Notes under the pieces: model-generated
Databases searched by the model: none
Seen by the model: the letters and a program-made list of their open reading frames with translations, nothing else
What the model was told of the DNA's origin: nothing
Origin: Clostridia bacterium
GTDB taxonomy: Bacteria > Bacillota > Clostridia > Christensenellales > Aristaeellaceae
Assembly (NCBI GenBank): GCA_017545905.1
Contig: JAFWXL010000017.1
Coordinates: forward strand, 1 to 34,477
Length of the DNA stretch: 34,477 nt
Reading direction: 5' to 3'
Program-made: the position numbers and the translations under genes
Part shown: positions 12,434 through 34,477 of the stretch, in pieces
Layout: every line of letters starts with the position of its first letter
Numbering within the stretch: position 1 is the first letter of the stretch

Positions 12434-12490
12434 AGTTCCTCCAAGGGGGATACGTTGGGGATTTCATCTCTTGACCCTTCATCCGGGAAA

Positions 12491-12760
12491 CTCGCATAGT
12501 CGTGGCATGCCCGGAGAATTCGCATAGTCGCGATGTTCCATCGCTCCTTGCGACTCTCCACGCTTCGCCTCGCTGATTGCGTCCACTGGACGCGCTCGGC
12601 TTCGGTGCCCCTTGCGATTCCCGACGTTCCGCCTCGCTGATTGCGTCCACAGGACGCGCTCGGCTCCAGTCCACTTCGCGGCTGCTTTATGCTGCCGCGA
12701 AGCGGGAAAGGGGGCTGGGGACGATGTCCCCAGACGGGTTTTAGGGCGGTAGCCCTAACG
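12491..12760 (+). repeat. Structured intergenic repeat, copy A (with internal duplication)
   Basis: Copy A of a dispersed element. It has GCATAGTCG twice (12494, 12522), the hairpin GCGATG-ttc-CATCGC, and two tandem units of about 65-70 bp, each containing GCGTCC-ac(t/a)-GGACGC. An 80-base stretch (12610-12689) recurs exactly, inverted, at 22023-22102. A second module follows with hairpins CTGGGGAC-gat-GTCCCCAG (12715-12733) and TTAGGGC-ggta-GCCCTAA (12741-12758). It fills the gap between pfkA and rlmD. Confidence 0.85.
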
Positions 12761-12769
12761 TACTTTAAT

Positions 12770-16144: not shown

Positions 16145-17442
16145 TGCGCAGCCAGGAATTTACCGGAAAAACGACGCAGGAAGCGATTGACGCCGGCCTT
16201 GCTGCGCTGGGCGTAACCATCGCAGACGTGCATGTCGACGTCATTCAGGAAGGCGCCAAGGGCCTGTTCGGCCTGTTCGGCAGCAAGCCGGCGTGCGTCC
16301 GCCTGACCGTGATGGACGACGAGAAGGAAGACGATCATGGCCTGAGCGATCTGCTTAGCTCCTTCAGCCTGAATGAGCCGCAGAAGAAGAAGCCGGCGCC
16401 CAAGGCTGAAAAGAAGCCGGAAGCCAAGAAGCCGGCTGAAAAGAAGACCGAAGCCAAGCCGGAAGCGAAGGCGGAGGCCAAGGCCGAAAAGAAAGCCGAA
16501 AAGGCCGAAGTGAAGGCCGAGAAGAAGGCTGAAAAGGCCGAGGTGAAGGCTGAGAAGGCCGAGGTGAAGGCTGAGAAGAAGGCTGAAAAGGCCGAGGCGA
16601 AGGCTGAAAAGAAGGCTGAGGAGAAGCCGGAAGAAAAGGCGGAAGCGAAGGCTGAGAAGCCGCGTGCGCCCAAGAAGCCGCGCGCACCCAAGGCCGAGAA
16701 GAAGCCGGCCGAAAAGAAGGCTGAGCCGCGCGAGTATGCGCCGATGGTTCCGGCCAAGCCGTTCACCCCGACCGAGCCGCCGGTTCTCCACGCGGAGGAT
16801 ACCCCGGCCGGCAAGGCGCAGCGCTTCCTGATGGAAGTGACCGGCCTGATGAACGTGAAGGTGGACGTTTATGTGGATGACACCCGCGAGGACGGCCTGT
16901 ACATCCATATGATCGGCGATACGCTGGGCATCCTGATCGGCCGCCGCGGCGAGACGCTCGATGCGCTCCAGTATCTGACCAGCCTGCAGGTGAACAAGGG
17001 CCGTGAGGGCTACATCCGCGTGACGCTGGATACCGAGAATTACCGTGCCAAGCGCGAGGACAGCCTGCGCCGTCTGGCGCAGCGCATGGCCAACCGTGCG
17101 ACCAAGACCGGCCGCAAGGTCGTACTCGAGCCGATGAATCCGTATGAGCGCCGCGTGCTGCACACTGCGCTGCAGAATCATCCGGGCGTGACCACGCACT
17201 CCGAGGGCGAGGAGCCCAACCGCCGCGTGGTGATCATGCTGGCGGGCCAGAGCGAGCGCGCCGAGCAGACCGGCCGCGAGGAGAAGGGCGCCAAGGCTGA
17301 ACACGGCGACAAGCCGTCTTCTTCCCGCCGCCGCCGCAGCCGCCGTGGCCGCCGCGGCCCGAAGAACGCGCAGCCGGCGGGTGAAAATGCCGCTGTCGAA
17401 ACCGCCGCGCAGGACGCGCCGGTTGACGTGCTGGGTGAATAA
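16144..17442 (+). CDS. jag: RNA-binding protein Jag/KhpB
   Basis: A 432-residue cytoplasmic RNA-binding protein. Order: Jag-N domain (1-57, with EGAKGLFGLFG), a very long Lys/Ala/Glu-rich linker (about 80-215), a KH domain from about 227 (LIGRRGETLDALQYL near 264), an R3H domain (MNPYERRVLHTALQ to GEEPNRRVVI), and a basic tail (SSSRRRRSRRGRRG) ending in an acidic segment. KhpB proteins bind RNA with KhpA and affect cell division and envelope growth. The linker is far longer than usual and built from a repeated KAEKKAE unit. ATG 16144 overlaps the yidC stop (TGATG), so the genes are coupled. A G-rich tail after R3H is an additional oddity. Confidence 0.92.
   Translation: MRSQEFTGKTTQEAIDAGLAALGVTIADVHVDVIQEGAKGLFGLFGSKPACVRLTVMDDEKEDDHGLSDLLSSFSLNEPQKKKPAPKAEKKPEAKKPAEKKTEAKPEAKAEAKAEKKAEKAEVKAEKKAEKAEVKAEKAEVKAEKKAEKAEAKAEKKAEEKPEEKAEAKAEKPRAPKKPRAPKAEKKPAEKKAEPREYAPMVPAKPFTPTEPPVLHAEDTPAGKAQRFLMEVTGLMNVKVDVYVDDTREDGLYIHMIGDTLGILIGRRGETLDALQYLTSLQVNKGREGYIRVTLDTENYRAKREDSLRRLAQRMANRATKTGRKVVLEPMNPYERRVLHTALQNHPGVTTHSEGEEPNRRVVIMLAGQSERAEQTGREEKGAKAEHGDKPSSSRRRRSRRGRRGPKNAQPAGENAAVETAAQDAPVDVLGE
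16385..16735 (+). repeat. Degenerate tandem repeats encoding the KAE linker of Jag
   Basis: Repeats of GCTGAGAAG/GCCGAAAAG-type triplets encode KAEKKAEKAEVKAE-like units about 14 residues long. Longer blocks recur nearly identically between 16500 and 16620. This low-complexity DNA is prone to length change by slippage. Confidence 0.8.
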
Positions 17443-19232: not shown

Positions 19233-20792
19233 ATGATGAAGAAACGGGCGATGGCGCTGCTGCTGGGCGTGATGATGCTCCTTGCCGCTGGTGCACTGGC
19301 ACAGGGGGCGACGTATGTCTTTCCGTACGAGGGCTTCCGCTATACGCAGAGCGAAGCGGAAACCGTGCTCACGCAGACGAATCTGCATGAACATGAGGAG
19401 CTGATTGCCTCGCTGGGCACGACGAAGGAAGCCATCCTCGCAAGCTATATGGCCTCCGGCATTGTTATGGAGGTGCTCACGCAGGATGGCGGCCAGATCG
19501 CGGTGAGCGTCGCTGACGCCGGAGATTTTTCCGACGTGCAGTGGATGTCTGAGATCGGCGGGGAACGGCTGGAGGCGTTCAGGGCGCTCTTTGAGGACAG
19601 CGGTCTCTATGAAACGGTTGATCTGACCGATACCGAGCCGGTCTGTGTGCGCCTGACCAGCTCGGCGATGTATGCGTCCATGCCAGTGTATTCGCTGCGT
19701 TACGCGATGCTGCATCTGGGCCGCCTGTACATGATCACACAGACCATCGTGGGCCGTGCGCCGGAGAGCGCAGACGACGTGCGCATAGCCGAGGTGCTCT
19801 CGGGTATGAAGCTGCTCTCCACAGTGTCCGATCCGACGCCGGAACCCACGCCTGTGCCGACCCCGACCCCGGCGCCGACGCCTGTGCCCACGCCCGGCAT
19901 TGCCGAAGTGCTGGCCAGCGACGGCACAATGGAAGTCAGCGGCGTGCCGGCCTATACGAATAACCCGCGTATCACCGTTTCCGGCGTGACCGATCCGTCC
20001 GCCGAGGTGCGTGTGGCGGTGGATGACCGCACGCTTGGCACGGTGACGGCCAGAAAGGACGGCAGCTTCTCGCTGGATGTGACGCTGCCTGCGGATGGCG
20101 AGCAGACGCTGGCGGTCATGACCGATACAGCGGAGGTTATGCTTGCCGTGCACTATGAGATGCCGATGGCTAAGCTGATCATCACCGAGCCGGAGACGCC
20201 GAATTTCACCGGTGAATATGTCATGGTGCGCGGCGTGACGGAGCCTAATGCGACGGTCTATATCGCCGGCAAGGGCATGAACGCCAATGTCAAGGCCAAT
20301 AAGAACGGCGATTTCTCTATGCGCGTCTTTATAGAAGACGAGGGCGAGCAGACCTTCACGCTGCGTTCGAAGCTCAAGAATTATCGTGAAAATACGATGG
20401 AAATCACGCTCAGACGTGAGTTTACCCTGCGCGAGGGTATTGCTGATTTCCGCAGGAGCCTGATCGCCGTGGAATATGCGCAGCTGGCGAAGGCGCCGGA
20501 GCAGTATATCGGAAAGCACTTCTCCTATCGCGGCAAGGTCATGGCCTTTACCGATTACGACGGCAGGGCTTGCGCGCTGGTGTGCGTAGAAAACCCGACC
20601 GTCGGCAAATGGTATGCGCCCGTCTGGGCGGTGCTCAGCGGTGAGGCGGAGGGTCTTGCCGAGGGCAGCATTGCGACGTTCTATCTCGTCGGCGAAGGAC
20701 TGACCCTGCCGGCAGACGGCGAATACACCGAGGACGGCGCAGCAGCGGAAGCGCCGGTCGCCGTGGCCAGATACATCACGGAGATCAAATAA
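19233..20792 (+). CDS. Secreted protein with Pro-Thr linker and Ig-like repeats
   Basis: A 519-residue exported protein of unknown function. It has a signal peptide (MMKKRAMALLLGVMMLLAAG, cleavage probably after ALA near 23) and an N-terminal globular domain (about 25-200). Next is a proline-threonine linker of PTP[E/V/A] repeats (about 203-222), then two bacterial Ig-like domains with the VxGVTxPxAxVxV pattern (about 230-310 and 315-395). The C-terminal domain (about 400-519) reads like an OB-type barrel (YIGKHFSYRGKVMAF). There is no sortase motif or membrane anchor at the end, so it is released or held non-covalently. ATG 19233 is preceded by GGAGGGGG. It is transcribed alone, from its own promoter to its own terminator. 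Confidence 0.75.
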   Translation: MMKKRAMALLLGVMMLLAAGALAQGATYVFPYEGFRYTQSEAETVLTQTNLHEHEELIASLGTTKEAILASYMASGIVMEVLTQDGGQIAVSVADAGDFSDVQWMSEIGGERLEAFRALFEDSGLYETVDLTDTEPVCVRLTSSAMYASMPVYSLRYAMLHLGRLYMITQTIVGRAPESADDVRIAEVLSGMKLLSTVSDPTPEPTPVPTPTPAPTPVPTPGIAEVLASDGTMEVSGVPAYTNNPRITVSGVTDPSAEVRVAVDDRTLGTVTARKDGSFSLDVTLPADGEQTLAVMTDTAEVMLAVHYEMPMAKLIITEPETPNFTGEYVMVRGVTEPNATVYIAGKGMNANVKANKNGDFSMRVFIEDEGEQTFTLRSKLKNYRENTMEITLRREFTLREGIADFRRSLIAVEYAQLAKAPEQYIGKHFSYRGKVMAFTDYDGRACALVCVENPTVGKWYAPVWAVLSGEAEGLAEGSIATFYLVGEGLTLPADGEYTEDGAAAEAPVAVARYITEIK

Positions 20793-21727: not shown

Positions 21728-21793
21728 TACGCGCTGCGCTAAGGAGACGCGCTGCGCTGAGGAGACGCGCTGCGCTGAGGAGACGCGCTGCGC
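21728..21793. repeat. 18-bp tandem repeat, 3.7 copies
   Basis: The unit ACGCGCTGCGCTGAGGAG occupies 21728-21745 (one difference), 21746-21763 and 21764-21781, with a 12-base partial copy at 21782-21793. It is intergenic, between the XRE-cupin gene and potA. Confidence 0.92.
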
Positions 21794-22015
21794 TGTGCCC
21801 AGAAGGATGAGGAGGGGCTCCTCGCCCCTCCTACATCCCTCTGGACTCCCATACCACCCTCGAACGCTGGGGAGGTATAAGGGACTTTGAGCAGCGAAGA
21901 TTCGTTTCCGGCGTACGCGTGCGACGGAGTCGCAACTGTGCTTTTGCGCAGGGGCTGGATTGAAGTACACGCGGCTTAAATCGAATGATGGAGACAAACA
22001 AAGTTTGCCATGATC
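21794..22015. other. Gene-free repeat-rich stretch with hairpins
   Basis: No gene is seen. A 9-bp stem AGGAGGGGC (21809-21817) with GCCCCTCCT (21823-21831) could act as a terminator-like or processing hairpin, but no T-run follows. A smaller hairpin TGCGAC-gga-GTCGCA lies near 21930. Confidence 0.6.
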
Positions 22016-22191
22016 AGCTGCTTAAAGCAGCCGCGAAGTGGACTGGAGCCGAGCGCGTCCTGTGGACGCAATCAGCGAGGCGGAACGTCGGGAATCGCAA
22101 GGAGCGGCAGAATGCCGCGACTATGCGAGTTCCCCGGAAGAAGGGGTTCGGGGACAATGTCCCCGAGCGGGGATTGGGGCGGCAGCCCCAA
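22016..22191 (-). repeat. Structured intergenic repeat, copy B, in the potA leader
   Basis: Inverted relative to copy A; 22023-22102 matches 12689-12610 exactly (80 bases). Read on the minus strand it has GCATAGTCG followed by hairpin GCGGCA-ttc-TGCCGC, then the GCGTCC-aca-GGACGC hairpin. The second module has TCGGGGAC-aat-GTCCCCGA (22148-22166) and TTGGGGC-ggca-GCCCCAA (22174-22191). It ends at the potA ribosome binding site. Confidence 0.85.
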
Positions 22192-34324: not shown

Positions 34325-34344
34325 TGGGGGCTGTTGGGGCTGCC

Positions 34345-34477
34345 GATCCGGGAAGCCGGCATAGTCGCGCAAGCGCTCCTTGCCGTTTCCGACGCTCCGC
34401 CTGCCTGTTTCGCCCACTGGGCGCGGCAGGCTCCGGTCCCAAACCCGCCTGAGGGATTTCCATCTCCTCGCTCGACA
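34345..34477 (+). repeat. Structured intergenic repeat, copy C (cut by window end)
   Basis: Same orientation as copy A. GCATAGTCG (34359-34367) is followed by hairpin GCGC-aa-GCGC, GCTCCTTGC, then GCCTGCC...GGCAGGC enclosing GCCC-act-GGGC. A GAGGGATtt-like arm begins near 34452. It lies just after lacM. Confidence 0.78.

Follow-up and report, generated by a model that had tools for sequence, protein, structure and literature searches.

A mobile, DNA-level structured three-helix element with a preference for hairpin targets in a genus of Clostridia

In the present study, we analyzed a stretch of 34,477 nucleotides (the window) from a Clostridia bacterium, which carries a structured intergenic element, here called X, at three sites (A, B and C). 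X is about 95-101 nt long and consists of three helices, P1, which encloses the variable hairpin P2, and then P3. The neighbors of site A are a gene with tRNA_U5-meth_tr and TRAM domains and a phosphofructokinase gene. The original prediction had described a three-copy dispersed element, and all of its named motifs and stems were present at the three sites. Exact matches to GCATAGTCG were located at 12494, 12522, 22118 (reverse strand) and 34359 of the window, and exact matches to GCTCCTTGC at 12543, 22097 (reverse strand) and 34375, as well as outside X at 19277 and 26733. Each motif alone, with at most one mismatch allowed, was in mild excess (16 matches against 8.45 expected for GCATAGTCG and 27 against 14.1 expected for GCTCCTTGC). 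Site A, which had been read as a single copy reaching 12760, proved to be one X nested in the P2 loop of another X within a palindromic host array (Table 1), and the letters from about 12673 to 12760 belong to that array and lie outside X. A near-tandem repeat with a period of 64 at 12546-12665 overlaps A-inner and the outer 3' half. Uninterrupted hairpins comparable to the arms around copy C were also found, namely TTAGGG-CTGCCG-CCCTAA and TTGGGG-CGGCAG-CCCCAA.

Table 1. Coordinates of X copies, their helices and the surrounding palindromic DNA in the window.
Feature	Position	Strand	Basis
Full copy A-inner of X	12511..12608	+	Covariance-model match 12510-12610 and sequence; ends within a few nt
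A-inner P1, 5' arm (partner 12549-12558)	12514..12524	+	Alignment A1, columns 4-14 and 39-48
A-inner P2 hairpin GCGATG-ttc-CATCGC	12530..12544	+	Sequence, host-copy alignment
A-inner P3; lower stem CAC/GTG covaries with GAC/GTC in other copies	12559..12607	+	Alignment
Outer X copy, 5' half, broken in P2 loop by A-inner	12483..12510	+	Sequence, nesting search
Outer X copy, 3' half (P1 3' arm and P3)	12609..12672	+	Sequence, nesting search
Palindromic host array at site A, left part	12443..12482	none	X-less orthologous array in genome G399
Palindromic host array at site A, right part	12673..12764	none	X-less orthologous array in genome G399
Full copy B of X	22038..22137	-	Covariance-model match; X in 0 of 11 orthologous gaps
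Full copy C of X	34347..34441	+	Covariance-model match; CCGGG core from 34348
Copy C, host-hairpin 5' arm TTGGG, seemingly interrupted by X, only 5 bp	34334..34338	+	Sequence
Copy C, host-hairpin 3' arm CCCAA, overlaps model-match end	34438..34442	+	Sequence

Several other repeats were observed in the same DNA. The window at 12443-12764 and its orthologue in locus L185 contained arrays of other GC-rich palindromes (GGGGATTTCATCCCC, GGGGACATTGTCCCC, GCTTCGCGGC...GCCGCGAAGC), which carried ACGT near both ends and whose presence or absence varied between species. The gap of copy B also held 3.7 copies of an 18-bp tandem repeat, ACGCGCTGCGCTGAGGAG, with 97% matches (window 21729-21795). Low-complexity repeats were found at 16387-16692 of the window, within a gene with Jag_N, KH and R3H domains.

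The consensus of the 5' part of X reads CCGGGGAAcTCGCA-TAGTC-(P2)-TCCT-TGCGATTCCC, and the 3' part that follows TGCGATTCCC reads GAC g C TCC GCCTGCC tgttt CGCCC act GGGCG c GGCAGGC TCC G GTC C. In P1, GGGAAcTCGCA pairs with TGCGATTCCC, with P2 inside and one bulged C. P2 was variable in both sequence and length, from GCGCAAGCGC upward, and P3 comprised a lower stem (GAC.C/G.GTC or CAC/GTG), an internal loop and two upper stems, with bulges. The conserved unpaired bases were TAGTC and TCCT beside P2, the bulged C in P1 and the bulges in P3. The two-hairpin plan proposed earlier was right for P2 and the top of P3 but overlooked P1 around P2. The ends of X, placed to within a few nt, had only CCGG in common. 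RNA folding of two typed X composites gave z values of -1.9 and -2.8 relative to shuffled sequences, indicating that they were only modestly more stable. Copies consisting of P1 and P2 only, followed by unrelated sequence, were observed in loci L007 (231-325) and L017 (1638-1732). A GAATCTCA stretch occurred in the flanks in L007 and L027, and its partner TGAGATTC followed P1-P2 in L007 and L017.

The element was far more numerous than the three copies first described, which were themselves real. In the host genome, a 2.53-Mb draft in 115 contigs that is 77.8% complete, a 203-nt query gave at least 48 matches (40 of 78 candidates scored). With a covariance model of 98 copies, at least 62 matches were obtained at E<=0.01 and at least 46 full copies at E<1e-10; the model E-values are rough, and the counts are lower bounds because 150 of 1819 candidates were scored. 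In contrast to the short motifs, the ordered X unit thus lies far above chance in the host genome. As the original prediction had proposed, the covariance model was also run against related genomes, nearly all of them draft metagenome-assembled genomes (MAGs). X matches were found in 19 of the 29 genomes of the genus, with 2-102 matches each (602 in total) and none in the others. A pattern scan of named genomes yielded at least 104 stretches; among the 80 listed, the titles were those of Clostridia or Clostridiales MAGs and one Candidatus Ventricola gallistercoris, and several named gut samples (water deer rectum, water buffalo cecum and sheep rectum). X was found in MAGs from several independent projects.

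Outside the genus, model matches of about 36-67 bits were obtained in other genera of the same order. The 19 such stretches examined retained CATAGTCG...CTCCTTG and GCCAC..GGC.GCG or close variants, and their P1 and P2 were strongly different yet mostly paired. In the wider class, at E<=1e-4 with strict filters, the host genome alone matched among 391. One X copy used as a query gave no matches in plasmid and phage collections. A loose pattern applied to viral contigs returned mostly chance matches, and X was present in 2 of the 80 loci scored by the model (120 fetched), which suggests that phages may carry X between hosts.

The covariation of the stems was analyzed in two alignments. Alignment A1 comprised 28 host copies, and alignment A2 comprised 98 of 133 regex-found copies (97 at <96% similarity, with copy C restored). 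In A1, 95.8% of the cells were paired and both-sided changes occurred in 14 of 32 pairs, with 69 such cells compared with 18.2 in shuffles. In A2, 96.8% of the cells were paired and both-sided changes occurred in 24 of 32 pairs, with 362 cells compared with 97.2 in shuffles and at most 36 in slid-structure controls. The number of further pair types did not separate X from the controls (24 vs 28.1 in A1; 51 vs 48.5 in A2). With a structure-blind, APC-corrected G statistic, helix pairs took ranks 1-7 and 15 of the top 16 column pairs. Parsimony on a FastTree tree required no fewer than 129 Watson-Crick-to-Watson-Crick switches, and two P2 pairs of uncertain alignment account for 37 of these; the slid control on the tree was uninformative, because no slid pair had enough Watson-Crick rows. 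The conservation of loops and P1 in A2 is partly built in, since the search patterns preset the loop motifs and part of P1.

These results indicated that the stems are altered in both arms and remain paired in numerous cases, as had been predicted, and that compensation exceeds chance. Selection on structure, which the original prediction inferred, explains the covariation most simply; the paired changes could nevertheless be partly mutational, through template switching inside palindromes. The similarity and covariation could also be attributed to chance or to assembly artefacts of GC-rich MAGs, given the mild enrichment of the short motifs and the draft state of the genomes; the recovery of X from MAGs of separate projects and from most of the genus, together with the shuffled and slid controls, makes the probability of this explanation practically negligible.

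We then considered whether the structure is that of DNA or RNA. The mismatches in X stems comprised 29 G.T and 30 A.C, vs 148 G-U (68 in varying pairs) and 5 A-C in an RNase P RNA control from 20 genomes of the genus, a contrast that is somewhat inflated because the predicted RNA structure favors G-U by design. Using a home-made gene model trained on open reading frames with a Shine-Dalgarno site, we determined the gene context of the 88 copies, out of 133, whose flanks reached 900 nt or more; on one side of one copy there was no neighbor. None of the 88 copies lay in predicted genes, though 80% of the sequence was coding. Among 87 copies, X lay between co-directional genes in 58 (23 forward and 35 reverse), between convergent genes in 28 and between divergent genes in 1; 37 of 302 background gaps were divergent. 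At least one gene lay upstream of 86 of the 87 copies, placing X downstream of a gene. Such a distribution fits an insertion that genes tolerate on their downstream side and does not fit a strand-specific regulator. The window had no matches in Rfam, and site A gave three weak matches far under the gathering threshold. The X consensus had no T run 3' of the hairpins.

The equal numbers of G.T and A.C mismatches and the mixed orientation indicated that the structure of X looks like DNA, not like strand-specific RNA. Its interpretation as a structured RNA under transcript selection, acting in 3' UTR processing or stability or as a terminator-like or regulatory element, would agree with the strong covariation of the stems and with the position downstream of genes, as expected if X is transcribed; the authors of PMC3733652 interpret such a location and G.T stem pairs as indicating that many REPs function at the RNA level. 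We regard it as very unlikely in view of the mismatch ratio, the occurrence of X in both orientations to genes, its range from as many as 102 matches in one genome to none in others of the genus, the consensus without a T run and the absence of Rfam matches. The proposal of an RNA element in the original prediction was thus not borne out, and a protein-binding cruciform, another of its three options, may exist as a by-product. In locus L430 (within 1501-1911), the RNase P RNA match of genome G400 was 411 nt long, compared with 328-344 nt in other full-length ones, and the extra sequence was an AT-rich, hairpin-like insert in the variable region.

The mobility of X was assessed by comparing orthologous gaps, counting one orthologue per genome and excluding genomes with a single flank (for the L028 locus, among others G406 and G399). 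At site A, X was found in 0 of 21 other genomes with both flanks. In the closest of these, G399, with 91-92% identity in the flanks, the palindromic host array was present and X was absent; G417 had a different gap of 367 nt with palindromes, and 19 genomes had gaps of 55-160 nt. At site B, X was absent from all 11 related genomes with both flanks, and in G399 a different hairpin element sat within another array hairpin. At the L028 locus, a third site of the host genome, X was present in 0 of 9 related genomes with both flanks, two of which had an X-less array. For site A, the simplest order of events would be that the host array came first, X was then inserted into it, and X was finally inserted into X. 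The X-within-X composite of site A also matched elsewhere in G399, suggesting that the composite may have moved as a unit. Together with the interrupted hairpins described below, the X-less orthologous sites make a transposable hairpin the best supported of the three options offered earlier.

The flanks of X often formed a hairpin of their own. Of the 124 copies analyzed among the 133 (short or duplicate flanks excluded), 45 had flanks that paired over 6 bp or more as an outer stem, whereas 300 re-pairings of flanks gave 17.4 on average and 28 at most. The other 79 copies had no outer stem of this length, so the hairpin target is, as far as these data show, a preference. Among 25 distinct outer-stem arms (48 copies), 23 also formed hairpins without an insertion somewhere in the 1.25 Mb of loci retrieved. 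These hairpins gave 768 finds (both strands, overlapping arms counted), whereas the control with five scrambled 3' arms each on a single strand gave 81. The loop letters on the 5' side of X equaled those of the empty loops (TTTCA|TCCC, ACATTG|TCCC and CTGCCG|CCC), which places X at the junction of the loop and the 3' arm. The 5' end of X carried 2-3 extra letters (GT, AT, AGT or AC), and no consistent target-site duplication was seen at the interrupted hairpins. A strict search of 152 5' halves recovered nested X copies, two in P2 (the window and L111) and one in P3 (L079), and further P2 nesting was seen by eye in L054 and L108.

Two related observations were made at other loci. In viral contig L267 (3620-3830), X lay between direct repeats of about 35 nt containing a hairpin, possibly a long target duplication. 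The gap in L224 held a second hairpin element, GGGCAG..GACAGCCC-ggt-GGGCTGTC..CTGCCC followed by GACGAGCGTCGAGCGAGG, inside a CCTGAGGG/TCCCTCAGG hairpin; this element, which also occurred downstream of X in L008, belongs to another family with the same target habit.

Based on sequence comparisons of structure and covariation, site occupancy between genomes, hairpin preference and gene context, we consider it highly probable that X is a non-autonomous, hairpin-targeting mobile DNA that works like REP dimers and organellar double-hairpins and is moved in trans by a putative enzyme. X would fold, probably as single-stranded DNA or as a cruciform, into P1/P2 and then P3. We infer that a trans-acting enzyme would read the shape of X and its unpaired bases, not the sequences of the stems; such recognition would explain, in this proposal, why the stems drift through paired changes. 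The enzyme would attach X where the loop of another DNA hairpin meets its 3' arm. Its targets would be the small palindromes of the intergenic arrays and the P2 and P3 loops of X itself, producing nested structures, and copies would persist where they are harmless, that is, outside genes and almost never in divergent gaps.

An enzyme-free spread, in which replication stalls at hairpins and template switching or cleavage and repair copies palindromes into palindromes, would likewise account for targets at hairpin tips and nested insertions. The intermixing of several palindromic families, the lack of a consistent target duplication and the lack of a partner gene among the families tested are also consistent with it. 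However, X is a bounded unit with copies at many unrelated loci, and its unpaired bases recur in other genera despite different stems, suggesting specific recognition; we judge the enzyme-free route improbable.

The putative mover was sought among known transposase families and among the genes beside X. PF01797 (Y1_Tnp) had no match in the host draft, and Y1_Tnp matches were found in 16 of the 29 genomes of the genus. Among the 16 genomes with at least 10 X, PF01797 was absent from 8, including G409 (96% complete, 45 X matches) and G212 (94%, 35), an absence that is not absolute because the genomes are drafts. IS110 (PF01548) was absent from 14 of the same 16, which does not fit an IS110 derivative, and 7 of these drafts had neither family. 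Over the 29 genomes, no positive correlation with X was found for Y1_Tnp (Spearman -0.33, p 0.08) or IS110 (-0.27, p 0.15). RAYT/Y1 and IS110 were rejected as the obvious mover, being absent from many X-rich drafts and not positively correlated with X. Around 10 Y1_Tnp loci, the highest-scoring model match reached 18.4 bits (E 0.04), and none was convincing as X. Open reading frames of at least 90 aa beside X (4404) were grouped, and 20 representatives from the 25 largest groups were compared with Pfam. Six matched families, such as ABC transporter, MatE, DNA polymerase III PolC and M42 peptidase, and none was a transposase; the other 14 had no Pfam match, and several of them were, by eye, frames through X or antisense to genes. 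As a separate and suggestive observation, X-less genomes tended toward more Y1 matches.

Among known systems, X was compared first with REPs, which are small repeated palindromes marked by a GT[AG]G or CGTC tag (PMC3733652; PMC6006769; PMC2817692). GTAG REPs are associated with RAYTs and are defined by GT[AG]G 0-2 nt 5' of a 7-20 bp stem (PMC6006769), and CGTC REPs have no known transposase; some REP dimers lie in small palindromes (PMC3733652). X resembles REPs, BIMEs and REPINs in being short, intergenic and high-copy, with paired hairpins downstream of genes. It differs in being one three-helix unit, not two inverted REPs, and in having no excess of G.T over A.C, and half of the X-rich drafts have no Y1 match. 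Inspection of the A2 consensus revealed no GT[AG]G at the base of any of the three helices. Since no such tag was seen and a REP-type transposase does not go with X throughout the X-rich drafts, X was not filed as a REP. It would nevertheless be a REP-type element if it were moved by a RAYT or Y1 (HUH) transposase that the drafts lack or that has diverged beyond the reach of PF01797. The likeness in working, including REP dimers within palindromes, and the presence of Y1_Tnp in part of the genus speak for such a mover. The X-rich genomes without Y1_Tnp, among them G409 and G212, the negative correlation, the consensus without a visible tag and the unconvincing Y1 neighborhoods speak against it, and we consider it unlikely.

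The CGTC-tagged REPs, including dRS3 of Neisseria, resemble X in their mosaic intergenic clusters and in having no dedicated transposase known, and on the reverse strand CGTC stood just before P1 in 62 of 98 X copies. As published (PMC3733652), these REPs have an unpaired tag (CGTC, TGTC or CCTC), an 8-9 bp stem and a 4-5 nt loop. In X, by contrast, three of the tag letters form base pairs (GAC/GTC, covarying with CAC/GTG), in a helix that leads into a second variable hairpin. A2 columns 51-53 paired with columns 97-99 in helix 3 in 99.2% of the cells, so the CGTC of X is not an unpaired tag.

The double-hairpin elements of Allomyces mitochondria and the hairpin elements of sponge mtDNA are mobile hairpin units scattered among relatives, and the Allomyces elements are reported to lack a flanking duplication, as cited in PMC2800124 and PMC5910586. 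X is likewise a mobile pair of hairpins with no clear target duplication, but it resides on a bacterial chromosome, not in an organellar genome, and inserts at hairpin loop junctions. X thus appears to work like a double-hairpin element, an analogy by which we claim no homology. Yeast mitochondrial GC clusters resemble X as GC-rich palindromic units that merge and shuffle; they differ in being organellar, with a proliferating cluster of 42 nt and a putative target duplication reported (PMC4478555). By analogy, these organellar double-hairpin or hairpin-forming elements and the yeast GC clusters seem closest in behavior to X. Bacterial MITEs are also small, non-autonomous and intergenic, but in X no long terminal inverted repeat or consistent target duplication was seen, apart from the direct repeat of unclear origin in L267, and no parent IS was found in the families tested. 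We found no published name for X in the literature searched, mostly outside subscription journals, and no Rfam match, in agreement with the earlier statement that no name was known.

Collectively, X is a real, abundant, mobile and DNA-level structured element, which constitutes a new family with an unusual target preference. We also put forward, tentatively and as a possibility short of an even chance, that X forms a class of its own among bacterial mobile DNAs, one that targets shape (the junction of a hairpin loop and its 3' arm), not sequence. Its enzyme would be of a type not yet linked to small palindromic repeats, and successive rounds would build the nested hairpins that fill intergenic regions in the genus and in some relatives of the order. 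X provides an unusually clean natural record of mobile DNA seemingly recognized by structure, in which stems are swapped by paired changes, unpaired bases are kept, target hairpins are found both empty and filled, and nested copies give the relative order of insertions. The range from 0 to 102 copies within one genus offers a route to the responsible gene by genome comparison. X also serves as a warning that strong covariation, often read as a sign of functional RNA, can stem from mobile DNA, and here the ratio of G.T to A.C separates the two.
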